Shown: positions 26,253 through 60,629 of the stretch, piece after piece
How positions within the stretch are numbered: the stretch's first letter is position 1
Layout: each line of letters opens with the position of its first letter
Source: Salinihabitans flavidus
GTDB taxonomy: Bacteria; Pseudomonadota; Alphaproteobacteria; Rhodobacterales; Rhodobacteraceae
Reading direction: 5' to 3'
DNA: 64,000 bases
Assembly: GCF_900110425.1 (NCBI RefSeq)
Contig: NZ_FODS01000003.1
Coordinates: 62,001-126,000, forward strand
Notes under the pieces: generated by a model
Database searches by the model: none
Told to the model about the DNA's origin: nothing
What the model saw: the letters and a program-made list of their open reading frames with translations, nothing else
Translations under genes and position numbers: made by a program

Positions 26253-26915
26253 TCACGCCTCCTCCGGCACCGGGTAGAACGGCTTACTGTAGAATTGCTG
26301 CACCCCGTCCTTCTCACGCGCCCGCACATAGGCGGGCCGCGCCTCGATCCGCGCGATATGGGCGCGCAGCGCCCCGAAGCGGGCGAAATCCACGAAATAC
26401 GGGGCGGAAAAGAGGTTGAATCCCATCATCGTGTCGGCGGCCGAAAACCCCGACGGCAACAGCCAGTCGCGCTTTTTCATCACCGCCTCCATCGGCTTGA
26501 GCGTGGAGGCCAGCCGCGCCGCTTCAAGCCGCAGAACCGCCGGCGACGCCGGGCTCGGATCGCCCATGAACAGATGCTGCATGTTGAGAGAGGCCAGAAT
26601 GCTCGCCTGCGTTTCGGCAAATCCCAGCCATTCCAGGAACGGCACCCGCTCTGGATCGCCCGGCAGACGCCCCAGCCCATGCTCGGGCCGCGTTTCGCAG
26701 AGATATTCCACGATGGCCCCGCTTTCATGAATGGTGATTCCGTCGATCTCGAGTGCGGGCACACGCCCAGCCGGGGAAATCGAGCGGTATTCCTCGGCTC
26801 GCAACGATCCGTCGGTCAGCCCATAGTGCCGGATCTCCGCCTCGAGGCCCATCTCTTCCAGAAGCCAGAGGATACGGAACGACCGGGAAAAGGCGACGTG
26901 ATGCAACCGGATCAT
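26253..26915 (-). CDS. Glutathione S-transferase family protein (first of tandem pair)
   Basis: The protein of 220 aa has the GST fold: FSRSFRILWLLEEMGLEAEI, SPAGRVPALEIDGITIHESGAIVEYL, and a helical C-terminal half. It overlaps the MCC alpha stop by 4 nt (ATGA) and abuts its paralogue with no gap. The pair probably arose by tandem duplication and then diverged, since the C-terminal halves differ strongly. Function inside the leucine pathway is inferred only from the operon. Confidence 0.88.
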   Translation of the reverse strand: MIRLHHVAFSRSFRILWLLEEMGLEAEIRHYGLTDGSLRAEEYRSISPAGRVPALEIDGITIHESGAIVEYLCETRPEHGLGRLPGDPERVPFLEWLGFAETQASILASLNMQHLFMGDPSPASPAVLRLEAARLASTLKPMEAVMKKRDWLLPSGFSAADTMMGFNLFSAPYFVDFARFGALRAHIARIEARPAYVRAREKDGVQQFYSKPFYPVPEEA

Positions 26916-28864
26916 GCCGCCGCCTCCGCGTCGTCGTCCTCAAGCCGGATGAGCGCCGCGCCCGCCTCCACCTGCGTGCCCGCACCCGCCAGCACCTCGG
27001 CCACCACGCCATCACGCGCGGCCAGCAGTGAATGTTCCATCTTCATCGCCTCCAGAATCGCAAGCCTGTCACCCTTTGCCACCGTCTGCCCGGCCTCGGC
27101 AAAGACAGCCTTCACCATGCCCGGCATCGGGGCGATGACGATATGGCCCGCATCCGCCGCATGGGCATCGCGCGCCAGCGGGTCGATCACCTCGAACCCG
27201 ATCCCGTGATGGGCGAACACCGTCACATGCAACCCGTGCCGCACCACCGGCGCGCCGCGCTCCCCATCCAGAAGCCAGCCCGCGCCGCGGCGAAGCGCCT
27301 CGACGGTGATCCCGTCCACCTCCACCAGATGATCGCCCGGACCGCGCGAGCGCACCACCGCCGTGAATTCCTCTCCATCGTGTCGAAGGTGGGCAGAGCG
27401 CCCCAACGCCTCCCAGAGGGTGAAGCCCGTCATCGGGTCGGTCTCACCCTCCAGCCCGAGCGCGGCCAGCGCGGCCAGCGCCTTGACCTGCGCGCCGGGA
27501 ACGGGCTCTTTCACCAACTCGTAGAGATCGCGCGCGATCAACCCGGTATCCACCTCCCCCCGTACAAACCCCGCATGCGCGCAGAGCGCACCGAGGAACG
27601 CGAGGTTCGTCACCGTCCCGGCCACCTGCGTGCGATCCAGTGCCGCGCGCATCCGCGCCAGCGCCACCGCCCGCGTCGGCCCGTGAGTGATGATCTTGGC
27701 AATCATCGGATCGTAGAACGGGCTGATCGTGTCGCCCGCCCGCACGCCGGTATCGGCCCGCGCGCTGCCCGGAAACACCAGATGCGACAGCGTGCCGGTG
27801 GCCGGCAGGAATCCCTTGGGCACATCCTCGGCATAAAGCCGCACCTCGAAGGCGTGACCATTGATTGACAGGTCCTCCTGCCGCGCCGGAAGCGTCTCTC
27901 CCGAGGCGACGCGAAGCTGCCATTCCACCAGATCGACGCCGGTGATCGCCTCGGTCACGGGGTGTTCGACCTGAAGGCGCGTGTTCATTTCCATGAACCA
28001 AAACCCGTCGGGCCGAAGCCCGCCCGCGCTGTCCACGATGAACTCCACCGTGCCCGCGCCCTTGTATCCGATGGCTTCGGCGGCGCGCACCGCCGCCGCC
28101 CCCATCGCGGCGCGCATCTCGTCTGTCATGCCGGGGGCCGGAGCTTCCTCGATCACCTTTTGGTGGCGCCGCTGCAGCGAACAGTCCCGCTCGAACAGAT
28201 GCACGGCGCGGGTGCCGTCGCCGAACACCTGCACCTCGATATGGCGCGGTCTCTGGATGTACTTCTCGATCAGGACATCGGCGTTGCCAAAGGCGCCCCG
28301 CGCCTCGCTCTGCGCGCTTTCCAGCGCGTCCAGGAAGTCCTCCGCACGCTCGACCAAACGCATCCCCTTGCCGCCGCCGCCCGCCACGGCCTTGATCAGC
28401 ACCGGGTAGCCGATACCGTCCGCAACGCCCCACAGATGTTCGGGGTCCTGGTTGCGGCCGTGATAGCCGGGTACCACGGGCACGCCCGCCTCTTCCATCA
28501 GCGCCTTGGCGGCATCCTTCAGCCCCATCTTGCGGATCGCCTCGGCCGAGGGGCCGATGAAGGTCAGACCGGCCTTTTCCACCGCCTCGACGAAATCGGG
28601 GTTCTCGCTCAAAAAGCCATAGCCGGGATGGATCGCCTGCGCGCCCGTCTCACGCGCCGCCGCGATGATCACATCGCCCTTCAGATAGCTGTCCGCCGGG
28701 GCTGCGCCGCCGATATGCACCGCCTCGTCGGCCATCGCCACATGGCGCGCGCCCGCGTCCGCCTCCGAATAGACAGCCACCGTGCGCACCCCGAGCGCGC
28801 GCGCGGTCTCAATCACCCGGCAGGCAATCTCGCCCCGGTTGGCAATCAGGATCTTGTCAAACAT
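26912..28864 (-). CDS. Methylcrotonyl-CoA carboxylase, biotin-containing alpha subunit
   Basis: This subunit carboxylates its own biotin with bicarbonate and ATP for transfer to 3-methylcrotonyl-CoA. It has 650 aa. The biotin carboxylase domain starts FDKILIANRGEIACRVI. The ATP-grasp has AVAGGGGKGMRLV and ERDCSLQRRHQKVIEEAPAP (E-R-D-C-S-L-Q-R-R-H-Q-K-V). At the C-terminus the biotinyl domain has EAMKMEH with the biotin lysine at 608. The start is the ATG at 28864 after GGGGAGAAACGGAA. A gap of 100 nt, filled by a 51-bp repeat element, separates it from the beta gene. Propionyl-CoA carboxylase is a less likely alternative given the neighbours. Confidence 0.94.
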   Translation of the reverse strand: MFDKILIANRGEIACRVIETARALGVRTVAVYSEADAGARHVAMADEAVHIGGAAPADSYLKGDVIIAAARETGAQAIHPGYGFLSENPDFVEAVEKAGLTFIGPSAEAIRKMGLKDAAKALMEEAGVPVVPGYHGRNQDPEHLWGVADGIGYPVLIKAVAGGGGKGMRLVERAEDFLDALESAQSEARGAFGNADVLIEKYIQRPRHIEVQVFGDGTRAVHLFERDCSLQRRHQKVIEEAPAPGMTDEMRAAMGAAAVRAAEAIGYKGAGTVEFIVDSAGGLRPDGFWFMEMNTRLQVEHPVTEAITGVDLVEWQLRVASGETLPARQEDLSINGHAFEVRLYAEDVPKGFLPATGTLSHLVFPGSARADTGVRAGDTISPFYDPMIAKIITHGPTRAVALARMRAALDRTQVAGTVTNLAFLGALCAHAGFVRGEVDTGLIARDLYELVKEPVPGAQVKALAALAALGLEGETDPMTGFTLWEALGRSAHLRHDGEEFTAVVRSRGPGDHLVEVDGITVEALRRGAGWLLDGERGAPVVRHGLHVTVFAHHGIGFEVIDPLARDAHAADAGHIVIAPMPGMVKAVFAEAGQTVAKGDRLAILEAMKMEHSLLAARDGVVAEVLAGAGTQVEAGAALIRLEDDDAEAAA

Positions 28865-28916
28865 TTCCGTTTCTCCCCGTATCGGCGGCAAGATCGAAGG
28901 CTCTGGGCTCCGCGCC

Positions 28917-28967
28917 ACCGACGCAATACCGACAAAATACCGACGTTATACCGACGTTGCATTTTCA
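28917..28967 (+). repeat. 51-bp element, copy A: four 11-bp ACCGAC units plus TTTTC block
   Basis: ACCGAC begins at 28917, 28928, 28939 and 28950, an exact 11-bp period, with AT before units 2 to 4. GCATTTTCA follows at 28959-28967, and its last three bases are the MCC beta stop codon. The element fills the gap between the MCC beta stop and the MCC alpha start (53 nt from that ATG). It matches copy C at 41 of 51 positions and copy B at 40 of 51 by my count. Confidence 0.85.
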
Positions 28968-30569
28968 CATCCGGAACACGCCAAAGCGTGTCTCCTCGAT
29001 CGGCGCGTTGAGGGCCGCCGACAGCGACAAAAACAGTGCGTCGCGTGTCTTGCGCGGGTCGATTATTCCATCATCCCAAAGCCTTGCACTGGCGTAGAGC
29101 GGATGGCTCTGCTCCTCGAACATCTCGACCGTGGGGCGTTTGAACTCGGCCTCCTCCTCGGCGCTCCACTCCTGCCCGGCCCGCTCCATCGCATCGCGCC
29201 TGACAGTCGCCAAAACCCCCGCCGCCTGCTCCCCGCCCATCACGGAAATGCGGCTGTTGGGCCATGTCCACAGGAATCGCGGCTGATACGCGCGGCCGGC
29301 CATGCCGTAGTTTCCGGCGCCGAACGAGCCGCCCACCAACATCGTGACCTTGGGCACCCGGGTCGTGGCAACCGCAGTCACCAGCTTGGCACCATTGCGC
29401 GCTATTCCTTCATTCTCATACTTCCGCCCGACCATGAAGCCGGTGATATTCTGAAGGAAAATCAGGGGGATATTTCGCTGAGAACAGAGTTCGACAAAAT
29501 GCGCTCCCTTCTGGGCGGCCTCGGAAAACAGCACCCCGTTGTTGGCGATGATCCCCACCGGGCAGCCTTTCACATGCGCAAATCCGGTCACCAGCGTCTC
29601 GCCGAAACGCGGCTTGAACTCATCGAAACGCGATCCGTCCACCACCCGTGCGATCACCTCGCGGATGTCATAGGGCGTGCGCAAATCCGCGGGCACGACG
29701 CCAAGGAGCTCTTCGGGATCATAGGCCGGCTCTTCCGGTGTTTCCCACTTTACCGTTCCCGGTTTCTCGCGGTTGAGGTACCCCACCGCACGGCGAGCCA
29801 GCGCCAGCGCATGCGCATCGTCCTCGGCCAGATAATCGGCCACGCCCGACAGGCGCGTGTGAACATCACCGCCACCCAGATCCTCGGCGCTGACAACCTC
29901 CCCAGTTGCTGCTTTCACCAACGGCGGTCCGGCAAGGAAGATGGTGCCCTGATTTTTAACAATAATAGTGACATCCGACATCGCCGGCACATAGGCGCCG
30001 CCTGCTGTGCACGATCCCATCACCACAGCGATCTGCGGAATGCCCCGGGCCGACATGTTCGCCTGATTGTAGAAAATACGCCCGAAATGATCCCGGTCCG
30101 GGAAAACCTCGTCCTGCTGCGGCAGGTTGGCCCCGCCACTGTCCACAAGGTAGATGCAGGGCAGTTGGCATTCCGAGGCGATCTCCTGCGCACGCAGGTG
30201 CTTCTTGACCGTCATGGGGTAGTAGGTACCACCCTTCACGGTGGCGTCATTGCATACCACCATGACCTCCTGCCCCTGCACCCGGCCGATCCCGGCAATC
30301 ACCCCTGCGCCGGGCGCGGACCCGTCATACATACCATGCGCCGCCGTCGCGCCGACCTCCAGAAACGGAGAGCCGGGATCGAGCAGGTTCGCCACCCTGT
30401 CTCGCGGCAACATCTTGCCGCGAGACAGGTGCCGCTCCCGTGCCTTGTCCCCGCCGCCCGCAGCGGCCAGCGCGGCAGCCTCCCTCACCTGCGCCAGTGC
30501 TTCGAGGTGGGCGGCACGATTTGCCTCCGCGGCATCCGAGCCGGGCAGGAAGGCAGAATTCAGTTTCAT
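28965..30569 (-). CDS. Methylcrotonyl-CoA carboxylase, carboxyltransferase beta subunit
   Basis: This subunit transfers the carboxyl group from biotin to 3-methylcrotonyl-CoA, giving 3-methylglutaconyl-CoA. It has 534 aa with two crotonase-like carboxyltransferase halves: the N-terminal half includes [23 protein letters not shown] and [20 protein letters not shown] (D-S-G-G-A), and the C-terminal half has [15 protein letters not shown] and [16 protein letters not shown]. These match MCC beta closely. It overlaps the flavoprotein gene upstream by 4 nt. Its stop codon lies inside repeat element A. Confidence 0.94.
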
Positions 30570-34810: not shown

Positions 34811-35162
34811 CGTTGCCCGGCCCGAATCGGGGGCAGAGCCTTGGTTAACAAGGAAAACCCCACGTCGGCAAAACGTCGGTATCACATCGGTATCGCGTCG
34901 GTACCAATGTCAGAATTCGCATGATGAACAGGGCGTTCGGTCGCCATGCCGTTAAGATTTGATTGAAACGCCACGAGCCCCCCGACCGTGAGGCACCTGC
35001 GATCCGGGCGACGGGACGCAAACGCGCCCTCCGGGGCCGCAAGCCAGCTTCGAGCCTCGACTGACCGATGCGGCACGAGTGACTGCTTCACTCTTCGCTG
35101 AGGATGCTTTTCGCGGAGTTGCTCATGGGGTACGCTGAAGGAAAGAAAAAGGGAAAGAGCAG
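34811..35162. other. Intergenic region holding repeat copy B
   Basis: The region lies between the scoAB terminator and the lytic transglycosylase gene. It contains a near-palindrome centred on GTTAA (34839-34853, CCTTG/CAAGG arms), then repeat element B. About 180 bases before the ribosome binding site show no gene I can support. Reading frames here are short and overlap in all directions. The promoter of the transglycosylase gene should lie in this stretch, but no strong hexamer pair stands out. Confidence 0.5.
34852..34902 (-). repeat. 51-bp element, copy B (inverted relative to A and C)
   Basis: Read on the minus strand, units start at 34902, 34891, 34880 and 34869: ACCGAC, ACCGAT, ACCGAC, GCCGAC, again at exactly 11-bp steps. 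GGGTTTTCC follows where copies A and C have GCATTTTCA. Identity is 40 of 51 to each of the other copies by my count. Bases outside the 51 bp are not conserved. Confidence 0.85.
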
Positions 35163-58697: not shown

Positions 58698-59570
58698 ATG
58701 ACGCCGAAAACCGACATGATCAAGGGCGCGCTCTGGATGATCGGGGCGATTGCCTCTTTCACGTCGATGGCCATCGCCGGGCGTGAGGTCAGTTTCGAAC
58801 TCGATACCTTCGAAATCATGATGTATCGCAGCTTCGTGGGGCTGGCCATCATGGTGGCGGTCGGTGCCATGGCCGGGCGACTGCACGAATACCGCACGGC
58901 GCGCTTTCGCACGCATGTGACGCGCAATATCTTTCACTTCGCCGGGCAGAATTTCTGGTTCTACTCGATCAGCGTCATCCCGCTGGCGCAGGTCTTTGCC
59001 ATCGAATTCACATCGCCCCTCTGGGTCGTGGTGCTCTCCCCGCTCGTTCTGGGTGAGCGGCTGACCCCGGTGCGCGCGCTCTCGGCGCTGATCGGCTTTG
59101 CCGGGATTCTGATCGTCACCCGGCCCAGCGTTGGAACATTCGAGTTCGGACAACTCACCGCCGCCTTTGCCGCGATTGGGTTTGCCGGCTCCGCGCTTGT
59201 CACGCGGCGGCTGACGTGGACCGACTCGACCATCTGCATCCTGTTCTACATGACCCTCCTGCAGTCGGTCTTCGGCATTGTCTGCGCCTTCGCGGATCTG
59301 GATGTGGCGGTGCCCTCCGCCACCGCCATTCCCTGGCTCATCGTGATCGGCCTTGCGGGACTGGCGGCACATTTCTGCATCACCACCGCGCTGACCTTCG
59401 CGCCCGCCGCCGTGGTCATGCCGATTGATTTCGGACGCCTTCCCGTGATCGCCCTCGTCGGTTTCATCTTCTACGCCGAGACGGTCAGCCCCTGGGTGCT
59501 TGTTGGCGCGGTGGTCATCTTTGCCGGCAACTACCTTAACATCCGCGCAGAATCCCGCGCGCCGCGTTAA
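58698..59570 (+). CDS. EamA/DMT-superfamily transporter
   Basis: This inner-membrane carrier has 290 aa and about ten helices in two EamA repeats. Visible parts are GALWMIGAIASFTSMAIAGREVS, MYRSFVGLAIM, FHFAGQNFWFYSISVIPLAQVFAIEFTSPLWVVVLSPLVLGERL (conserved S-P-L-W, E-R-L) in the first half, and FAPAAVVMPIDFGRLPVIALVGFIFYAE in the second. AGGAGG lies 8 nt before the ATG at 58698; the frame extends ten codons upstream. Substrate unknown. Confidence 0.9.
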   Translation: MTPKTDMIKGALWMIGAIASFTSMAIAGREVSFELDTFEIMMYRSFVGLAIMVAVGAMAGRLHEYRTARFRTHVTRNIFHFAGQNFWFYSISVIPLAQVFAIEFTSPLWVVVLSPLVLGERLTPVRALSALIGFAGILIVTRPSVGTFEFGQLTAAFAAIGFAGSALVTRRLTWTDSTICILFYMTLLQSVFGIVCAFADLDVAVPSATAIPWLIVIGLAGLAAHFCITTALTFAPAAVVMPIDFGRLPVIALVGFIFYAETVSPWVLVGAVVIFAGNYLNIRAESRAPR

Positions 59571-59604
59571 CACAGGCCCACGCCGCCTTGGAGCGAACGG
59601 AGGC

Positions 59605-59655
59605 ACCGACGCGATACCGACGTAATACCGACTTTTTACCGCATAGGCATTTTCA
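59605..59655 (+). repeat. 51-bp element, copy C
   Basis: ACCGAC begins at 59605, 59616 and 59627; a fourth unit, degenerate (ACCGCA), begins at 59638, so the 11-bp period is kept. GCATTTTCA follows at 59647-59655, exactly as in copy A. The element lies 34 nt after the EamA transporter stop and about 105 nt before the P-loop gene. Confidence 0.85.
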
Positions 59656-59665
59656 GCGAAATCAG

Positions 59666-59677
59666 CGGGTTAACCCG
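59666..59677. promoter_or_regulatory. 12-bp palindrome CGGGTTAACCCG next to repeat copy C
   Basis: This perfect palindrome lies 10 nt after the TTTTCA block of copy C and 82 nt before the P-loop gene. A GTTAA-centred near-palindrome lies at the equivalent side of copy B (34839-34853) but none at copy A. It may be a regulator site or chance. Confidence 0.4.
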
Positions 59678-59759
59678 ATTCGCCAGCGGGGGTCGATTTG
59701 CATTTGACCCCCCTCGCCCCTGCCGCTACCAACATGCGACGGATCAGGGGGCCGGGAAC

Positions 59760-60629
59760 ATGATCTATCCGACCGCAACGGACTGGCGCGAGGCGCCAAA
59801 GAAACGGGTTCTTCTCTTTGGCATGTCGGGACTGGGCAAGACCCATCTCGCCAATCTCCTGCGGGCCGAGGGCAACTGGTTTCACTACTCCATCGACTAT
59901 CGCATCGGCACCCGATACATGGGCGAGCACATCGCTGACCTGTTCAAGCGGGAGGCCATGAAAGTTCCGTTTTTACGGGATCTTCTGATGTCGGATTCGA
60001 TCTACATCGGCTCCAACATCACCTTCGACAACCTCGCCCCGCTGTCGAAGTATCTCGGCAAGCCGGGCAATCCCGACAAGGGCGGGTTGCCGTTCGACGA
60101 ATACATGCGGCGGCAGGAACAGCACCGCGCGGCAGAGTCCGCCGCGCTGCTCGACACCGCGCATTTCATCACCCGCGCACAGGAGCTTTACGGTTACGAT
60201 CACTTCGTCTGCGACACCGGCGGCTCCATCTGCGAGGTGGTGGATCCCGCCGACGCCGACGATCCGGTGCTGAGCGCGCTGACCCGCCATACGCTCATGG
60301 TCTGGATCAAAGGTTCGGAGGCGCACACCGAAGAACTGATCCGCCGCTTCGACCGCGCACCAAAGCCGATGTATTACCAGCCCGATTTCCTCAGGGCCCA
60401 CTGGGCGGAATATCTCAGAATCAACAACCTTCAGGAGCATGAAGTTGATCCAGATGCCTTCGTGCGCTGGACTTACGCGCAGGCGCTGGAGCATCGCCAG
60501 CCGCGCTATGAGGCGATGGCCCGCTGGGGCGTGAGCGTCACCGCCGAAGAGATGGCACAGATCCGCACCGCCGCCGATTTCGAGGCGCTGATCGCCCGCG
60601 GCCTTGAGCGCCGCACCGCCGCGACCTAG
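59760..60629 (+). CDS. P-loop NTPase/kinase-like protein of unknown role
   Basis: The protein is 289 aa. Walker A is at 21-28 (GMSGLGKT) in KKRVLLFGMSGLGKTHLANLL. The YSIDYRIGTRYMGEHIADLFKREAM segment then resembles an acceptor-binding region, and HFVCDTGGSICEVV and LMVWIKGSEAHTEELIRRFDRAPKPMYY follow. It reads like a small-molecule or shikimate-kinase-type P-loop protein, with no transmembrane part. GGGGGCCGGG precedes the ATG. It lies 33 nt before metA on the same strand and downstream of repeat copy C. I recall related genes near metA in other Rhodobacterales, but not a function. Confidence 0.78.
   Translation: MIYPTATDWREAPKKRVLLFGMSGLGKTHLANLLRAEGNWFHYSIDYRIGTRYMGEHIADLFKREAMKVPFLRDLLMSDSIYIGSNITFDNLAPLSKYLGKPGNPDKGGLPFDEYMRRQEQHRAAESAALLDTAHFITRAQELYGYDHFVCDTGGSICEVVDPADADDPVLSALTRHTLMVWIKGSEAHTEELIRRFDRAPKPMYYQPDFLRAHWAEYLRINNLQEHEVDPDAFVRWTYAQALEHRQPRYEAMARWGVSVTAEEMAQIRTAADFEALIARGLERRTAAT

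Follow-up and report, generated by a model that had tools for sequence, protein, structure and literature searches.

Oriented arrays of 11-bp units suggest an undescribed chromosome-marking system in Rhodobacteraceae

Short arrays of head-to-tail 11-bp units are dispersed between the genes of Salinihabitans flavidus (G000), mostly run with the local GC skew, and recur in other Rhodobacteraceae at orthologous sites where position and orientation are retained and the unit itself differs. We consider that these are probably the binding arrays of a putative protein marking replication polarity, rather than the sites of a regulon. Octamers such as KOPS are the main oriented landmarks known on bacterial chromosomes, and our analysis suggests that the arrays belong to an undescribed chromosome-marking system. 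If so, they would point to a new protein that organises the chromosome in a common family of marine bacteria.

Anatomy, copy number and placement in Salinihabitans flavidus

In the window, by which we mean the whole 64-kb stretch of DNA that was analysed, a 51-bp repeat occurs three times, at the positions and on the strands proposed by the first-pass annotation, and with the pairwise identities given there (40, 41 and 40 out of 51 bases). The 11-bp phase is likewise borne out: at up to 3 mismatches, each copy in the window accommodates two three-unit placements, 6 in all, and 100 dinucleotide shuffles yielded 0. The features to which we refer are the following.

28917..28967, + strand: copy A, a core-only array of four 11-bp units starting at 28917, 28928, 28939 and 28950, with a T-tract at 28962-28965
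34852..34902, - strand: copy B, the four-unit core of a flanked element; it contradicts the local polarity rule
34818..34960, - strand: copy B, the full flanked element of about 143 bp (nhmmer 89.0 bits)
59605..59655, + strand: copy C, the four-unit core of a flanked element
59549..59691, + strand: copy C, the full flanked element of about 143 bp (nhmmer 108.0 bits)
26912..28918, - strand: MCC alpha ORF (longest open form; biotin carboxylase), the context of copy A
28965..30569, - strand: MCC beta ORF (carboxyl transferase), with its stop codon within copy A

Copy A lies between MCC beta and MCC alpha, a site common to other genera, and overlaps the stop codon of the MCC beta ORF (TGA, 28965-28967), as had been noticed. 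Among the neighbours named earlier, Pfam recognizes MCC alpha, MCC beta and the transglycosylase (SLT_2), but at E 1e-5 it returns no match for the supposed P-loop gene (59760-60629). The window as a whole has no match in Rfam at the gathering score.

The sharp 51-bp boundaries that had been described hold for copy A, which is core-only, but not for copies B and C, which lie inside flanked forms of about 145 bp. Similarly, the flanks had been called unconserved, and among the window copies they do share just 7-15 of 40 bases, but a genome-wide alignment places B and C in flanked subfamilies. This alignment resolves two forms: one is flanked, spans about 145 bp and carries GTTAAC and GATTCG blocks, and the other is core-only, with the core retained and flanks that fail to align. 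Among 41 sampled copies in G000, 29 are flanked and 12 core-only, the split being an nhmmer cut at 83 bits that we set ourselves. Copy C possesses 9-nt GTTAAC-containing arms (59563-59571 and 59669-59677) that are 89% complementary, and the GTTAAC and GATTC words in the flanks of the elements at 34818-34960 and 59549-59691 we take to be CtrA-like and CcrM-like. The flank motif GCGAATCANGGTTAAC is near-private to G000, with 39 matches there vs 1-2 each in 8 of 79 other genomes; being nearly confined to one genome, it was dropped as a candidate for a family-wide element.

Further copies, whose absence the first-pass annotation would have counted as a refutation, are present throughout the genome. 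Across the 4,088,599 bases of G000, 166 forward and 141 reverse three-unit placements were obtained at up to 3 mismatches with overlaps counted, that is, 307 for the true pattern vs 0 for a reversed-pattern control; at one mismatch the placements are 116 and 97. In 863,573 sampled bases, the window included, we located 41 arrays, or about 1 per 21 kb, a density that extrapolates to about 190 arrays in the genome. All 41 are intergenic according to our own ORF caller, in line with the earlier placement of the window copies in intergenic gaps, and in five other genomes 6 of 57 arrays fall within genes as judged by a crude ORF caller. Mismatches are few, at most one in 39 of the 41 arrays even though 4 were permitted. 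Four units are present in 31 of the 41 and three in the remaining 10, under a search that required three; in G283, G061, G095 and G009 together, 45 of 54 arrays have four units and 9 have five, counts that are biased to four because the detector there required four units. An A/T tract is found about one turn past the last unit in G000, G283, G061 and G095, and the TTTTC block of the window copies is hence an instance of a wider feature.

The period also emerges from a unit-free test based on lag autocorrelation over 12 lags. At lag 11 this returned 28 clusters in G000, 14 in G283, 19 in G061 and 12 in G095, and at lags 7, 8, 10, 13, 14, 16, 17 and 20 it returned 0 clusters in those four genomes. 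Lags 9 and 12 gave 4 and 6 clusters in G000 and 2 and 8 in G061 (up to 8 over the four genomes), and lag 22 gave up to 5. In the G000 sample, ACCGAC arrays account for 28 of the 28 lag-11 clusters.

Array strand and replication polarity

Of 98 arrays in six genomes, 89 lie on the strand expected from the local GC skew: 19/19 in G061, 13/13 in G095, 5/5 in G009, 3/3 in G161, 15/17 in G283 and 34/41 in G000. The stretches of the five other genomes were picked for holding arrays and not for orientation, and 3 of the 20 G283 stretches were omitted, no four-unit array being detected there. Agreement with skew is high whether both flanking genes are lagging (33/35), both are leading (22/27) or the two are mixed (33/35), and the mean coding share on the skew-leading strand is 0.515; the polarity is therefore not a gene-strand effect. 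Flanked copies are polar too (23 of 29).

The G-richer strand of most arrays runs from origin to terminus. On the closed chromosome of G009, 10 of 10 among the sites listed fit an origin and terminus placed by skew. On that of G283, also closed, a simple origin-terminus rule fits 31 of 43 sites: 19 of the 21 nearer the terminus agree with it and 12 of the 22 nearer the origin, and the density of these 43 sites is flat toward the terminus (KS p 0.90). A second polar signal is available for comparison: GGGNAGGG is polarised in most replicons of a set including Cereibacter and Paracoccus, according to PMC13342612. Leaving aside 7 ties, its strand is that of the array at 67 of 91 sites, but G283 is split 7 to 7. 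Co-orientation with the arrays is 42:4 in G095, 28:4 in G009 and 7:0 in G161. All nine arrays that run against the skew (9 of 98, copy B among them) contradict the GGGNAGGG strand as well.

Different units at shared positions

We surveyed 292 genomes of the order, G000 included, and found ACCGAC arrays in 21 of them, again counting G000. Other units are in use elsewhere. The backwards control led to G061, which carries dispersed 11-bp arrays of a different unit, GCCATACGCCA, and a looser ATAC pattern at 11-bp spacing matched 61 of the 292 genomes, 25 of them with at least five matches; the ATAC-type units are lineage-specific, as exemplified by ATACCGACNNN, CTATACCNNNC, CCATACCAGAC and CCATACGCAAG. 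A TGYAC pattern matched 70 of the 292, with at least five matches in 47 and few control matches except for 12 in G044; TGYAC is near-palindromic, so some of its sites are counted on both strands. The two tallies of genomes with at least five matches were made by hand from tables, and 221 of the 292 genomes have fewer than five matches of ATAC or TGYAC type. The contrast between genomes can be complete, with 55 ATAC and 0 TGYAC matches in G000 against 0 and 105 in G017. The type also changes inside single genera, as in g3, with G107 of ATAC type and both G036 and G137 of TGYAC type, and in g7. A single genome, G174, whose units are intermediate, belongs to both sets; chance alone would lead to about 4 shared genomes, and we accordingly give the mutual exclusion of unit types no weight.

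Run on reversed genomes, the detector returned 19 sites in G061, 13 in G095, 3 in G161 and 0 in G000; this control is void for CATAC-type genomes, since CATAC is identical when reversed. Backwards patterns also matched in G044 (12), G014 (5+7), G072 (2+4) and G133 (7+6), perhaps reflecting further unit types. All the unit types seen place one pyrimidine-purine step (TA, TG, CG or CA) in every turn, and the 11-bp phase, on whose persistence in related genomes the first-pass annotation had laid weight, is retained even where the unit is different.

Comparison of flanking proteins between genomes identifies orthologous sites at which position and orientation are retained and the unit differs, among them MCC, soeA/soeB and lpd; gene names at shared sites are our reading of the proteins, not database assignments. 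Arrays orthologous to copy A occur in G161, where the type is CCATAC, and in G354 and G356, where it is TGYAC, making four genomes with three unit types. The soeA/soeB gap holds arrays in G000, G061, G095, G354 and the genome of L114, and the lpd leader holds them in G000, G061, G095, G351, G352, G353, G356 and the genome of L111; the G356 array at lpd is near-palindromic, so its orientation is not assignable. Further shared sites are found at proS, gatB, the end of rpoA, gltD, a livG-like gene, dnaJ/radC, the end of hemE, icd and valS. G352 is apparently the same genome as G161, having identical coordinates, which means that G161 mixes CCATAC and TGYAC units; by the same token G355 is apparently G195. 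In valS, two genomes with different units (L169 9812 and L127 1500) each have an in-frame array, and the two arrays occupy the same position in the protein.

The lpd leader was followed through the best 80 of 590 relatives, those closest to the query at lpd, a species-level set with many MAGs. A lag-11 score of at least 20 occurs directly upstream of lpd in 17 of the 80 genomes, and periods 7, 8, 10, 13, 14, 16 and 17 reach it in 0, 1, 1, 0, 0, 0 and 0. Over all 502,441 bases of the lpd loci, a score of at least 23 yields 14 clusters at period 11, of which 12 are the lpd site itself, and none at nine other periods. The unit at lpd is ACCGAC in Roseovarius, Sediminimonas and Shimia, GTCCGAC in Celeribacter, TGYAC in Epibacterium, Heliomarina, a Cognatishimia and Roseicyclus, and TTCATATG in Rhodovulum marinum, and TTCCGAT is also among those seen. 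The labels were assigned by eye; mapped onto a tree of 84 lpd proteins, they require at least 18 changes, with 62 of the 84 rows labelled as having no array. The lpd unit predicts what is found elsewhere in the genome: TGYAC arrays beyond lpd are present in 6 of 6 genomes with a TGYAC lpd array (just one such array in G352) and in 0 of 6 genomes with other lpd labels, the control giving 0. This prediction covered six of the seven TGYAC rows, the seventh being a near-copy of one tested.

Arrays occur on plasmids as well. In a Leisingera RepABC plasmid, two TGYAC arrays in opposite directions flank repABC, where the skew flips; with this plasmid read up to 150 kb, period 11 did not stand out in the unit-free test, and at 2 of 4 plasmid loci the skew is near zero and of the wrong sign. 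Searched with blastn, plasmids and phages gave no ACCGAC-type relatives. A TGYAC array query matched Leisingera plasmids only, in 10 of 72,556 records, and these matches are weak and partial (E 0.007-0.3; 31-38 of 56 bases). In plasmids of two Leisingera strains (NZ_CP081065, NZ_CP081067, NZ_CP083554 and NZ_CP083556), TGYAC arrays stand at matching intergenic places, after puuD and before carnitine 3-dehydrogenase. IMG/VR contains 6 stretches with three exact units, two of which, L342 and L343, show the spelling of this family. The IMG/VR contigs L338 (10021-10048) and L341 (5946-5973) share one and the same four-unit ACCGAC array, with CCTTTT after it; L338 has no match in the phage collection.

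A putative reader, alternative explanations and known systems

Since the letters are fixed within a genome and differ between genomes, we infer a sequence-specific protein that binds head-to-tail. Such a putative protein would occupy the four 11-bp units on one face of the helix, and the A/T tract would adjoin the bound units about one turn further on. One trans-acting protein, assembling as a head-to-tail oligomer, would thereby mark polarity. With GC skew as the guide to the origin-to-terminus direction, most of the roughly 190 arrays (an extrapolated number) are oriented so that the GTCGGTAT strand follows the fork. Less certainly, the bound arrays might make the direction of the chromosome readable by a moving machine, which could be a translocase, a loop extruder, the replisome or the recombination machinery. 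The sequence preference of the reader would have changed repeatedly in Rhodobacteraceae, with the arrays changing along and many positions staying.

Quite possibly, though we stop short of calling it probable, this amounts to a polarity code of the Rhodobacteraceae: dozens to hundreds of oriented landmarks, many of them kept between genera, would be served by one putative oligomeric reader that switches its DNA preference, the arrays being rewritten in concert with places and directions constant, so that the landmarks would be CTCF-like and their turnover PRDM9-like. If true, the family would offer a natural series of reader-site pairs, in which a protein and its many sites change together, and the reading is directly testable by DNA pull-down, as each lineage supplies its own bait.

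Two candidate readers were considered. The recognition segment of the FtsK gamma domain is near-invariant across unit types and across genomes without the searched arrays (24 of 26 domains read) and has no variation matching the unit; as the domain hardly varies, FtsK is an unlikely reader and was rejected. All 36 genomes tested encode MraZ, whether or not they carry arrays of the searched types, and it was set aside as uninformative; judged by coordinates only, no array among those listed directly precedes mraZ, and the closest is about 0.7 kb upstream, in G283. G161 alone among 25 genomes has two matches to the FtsK gamma domain, the second being in an ORF of 745 aa (L227; G161:C2:61261-61437).

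The first-pass annotation had linked the 11-bp phase to OmpR/PhoB-family regulators and had considered a regulon site; on this view an OmpR/PhoB-type or similar regulator would bind as two dimers per array and control the adjacent promoters. The idea of 11-bp head-to-tail binding sites fits, given that the arrays are mostly of four units and that all lag-11 clusters of the G000 sample are ACCGAC, and a regulator of this kind would suit both the direct-repeat phase and those arrays that lie just upstream of start codons (lpd, soeB). The regulon itself, however, we find distinctly unlikely. Of the 40 G000 arrays whose neighbours were both called, 15 lie in convergent gaps, which make up 70 of the 474 gaps of at least 40 bp (Fisher p 0.0002); arrays also interrupt operons, as at MCC beta/alpha and soeA/soeB, and lie in frame within valS; the neighbours are unrelated housekeeping genes; and orientation tracks GC skew independently of gene strand. 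The structural or replication role that the annotation had offered as its alternative is better supported. A non-autonomous extragenic mobile repeat, REP- or MITE-like, could acquire polarity by inserting into lagging-strand DNA, and the amplification of 145-bp flanked subfamilies in G000 with their 39 motif matches, the polarity of the flanked copies and the GTTAAC-containing arms near both ends of copy C are in keeping with this. We nevertheless judge it unlikely, because core-only copies have non-aligning flanks, the unit differs at orthologous positions, and inverted arms of at least 8 nt are absent from the region of copy A and from flanked copy B (copy C has 2 pairs, in the GTTAAC flank and outside the core).

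Strong polarity and head-to-tail asymmetry would befit polar replication-fork barriers, that is, traps of the Tus-Ter kind, and arrays do lie on both arms of the RepABC plasmid; some 190 extrapolated copies in G000 and a terminus that is not enriched in G283 leave this explanation quite improbable. That the arrays are a lineage-specific KOPS read by FtsK gamma is very improbable: the G-richer strand does run from origin to terminus as in KOPS, and GGGNAGGG points the same way as the arrays at 67 of 91 sites, but the gamma recognition segment barely varies across unit types, the co-orientation of GGGNAGGG with the arrays in G095, G009 and G161 implies that a KOPS-like signal is already present there, and an 8-bp motif does not fit four 11-bp units. 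We give the same very low standing to the proposal that phased pyrimidine-purine steps create a bendable segment for a general nucleoid protein, for which the exact letters would matter little; every unit type seen has such a step per turn, but the letters are fixed within a genome (28 of 28 clusters ACCGAC in G000, and the opposite ATAC and TGYAC counts of G000 and G017).

With binding arrays of a putative polarity-marking protein as the preferred reading, we compared the arrays with known systems. In alphaproteobacteria, the CtrA site TTAA-N7-TTAA and the LexA site GTTC-N7-GTTC have an 11-bp direct-repeat phase, with two half-sites at promoters; the arrays share this phase, but are genome-wide, polar and of four units. 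REP and REPIN sequences are intergenic, patchily distributed, high-copy extragenic repeats, and the arrays resemble them in being mostly intergenic, patchy between species and numerous, with flanked forms amplified in one genome. REP and BIME units, however, are palindromic hairpins and the array units are direct repeats; in addition, the array core is retained without flanks, and orthologous positions carry changed units. Two proteins that bind direct repeats offer further comparisons. MraZ operators, like the arrays, consist of short tandem direct repeats bound by one protein, the known sites being at the mraZ promoter (PMC8475190). BldC, as the putative reader would, occupies direct repeats asymmetrically and head-to-tail, giving a polar complex; it serves a Streptomyces developmental regulon with sites of varying length, whereas the arrays are mostly of four units and are not promoter-linked (PMC5859096).

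KOPS and AIMS, as presented in PMC5993296 and PMC13342612, are similar to the arrays in being dispersed and strand-biased, with the G-richer strand running from origin to terminus, and in occurring on secondary replicons too. They are octamers, whereas the arrays comprise 44 bp of phased units, and both their abundance and their bias rise toward the terminus; in G283 the density of arrays is flat, and 19 of 21 terminus-half sites fit the rule as against 12 of 22 near the origin. Moreover, the letters of the arrays differ between related species at shared positions, and FtsK gamma shows no matching change. A description of the arrays was not found in the open-access literature, sequence-string queries included, a search from which subscription papers mostly fall outside. 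We rate the array as new as a DNA element, one that shares its strand bias with KOPS and AIMS and its extragenic placement with REP.
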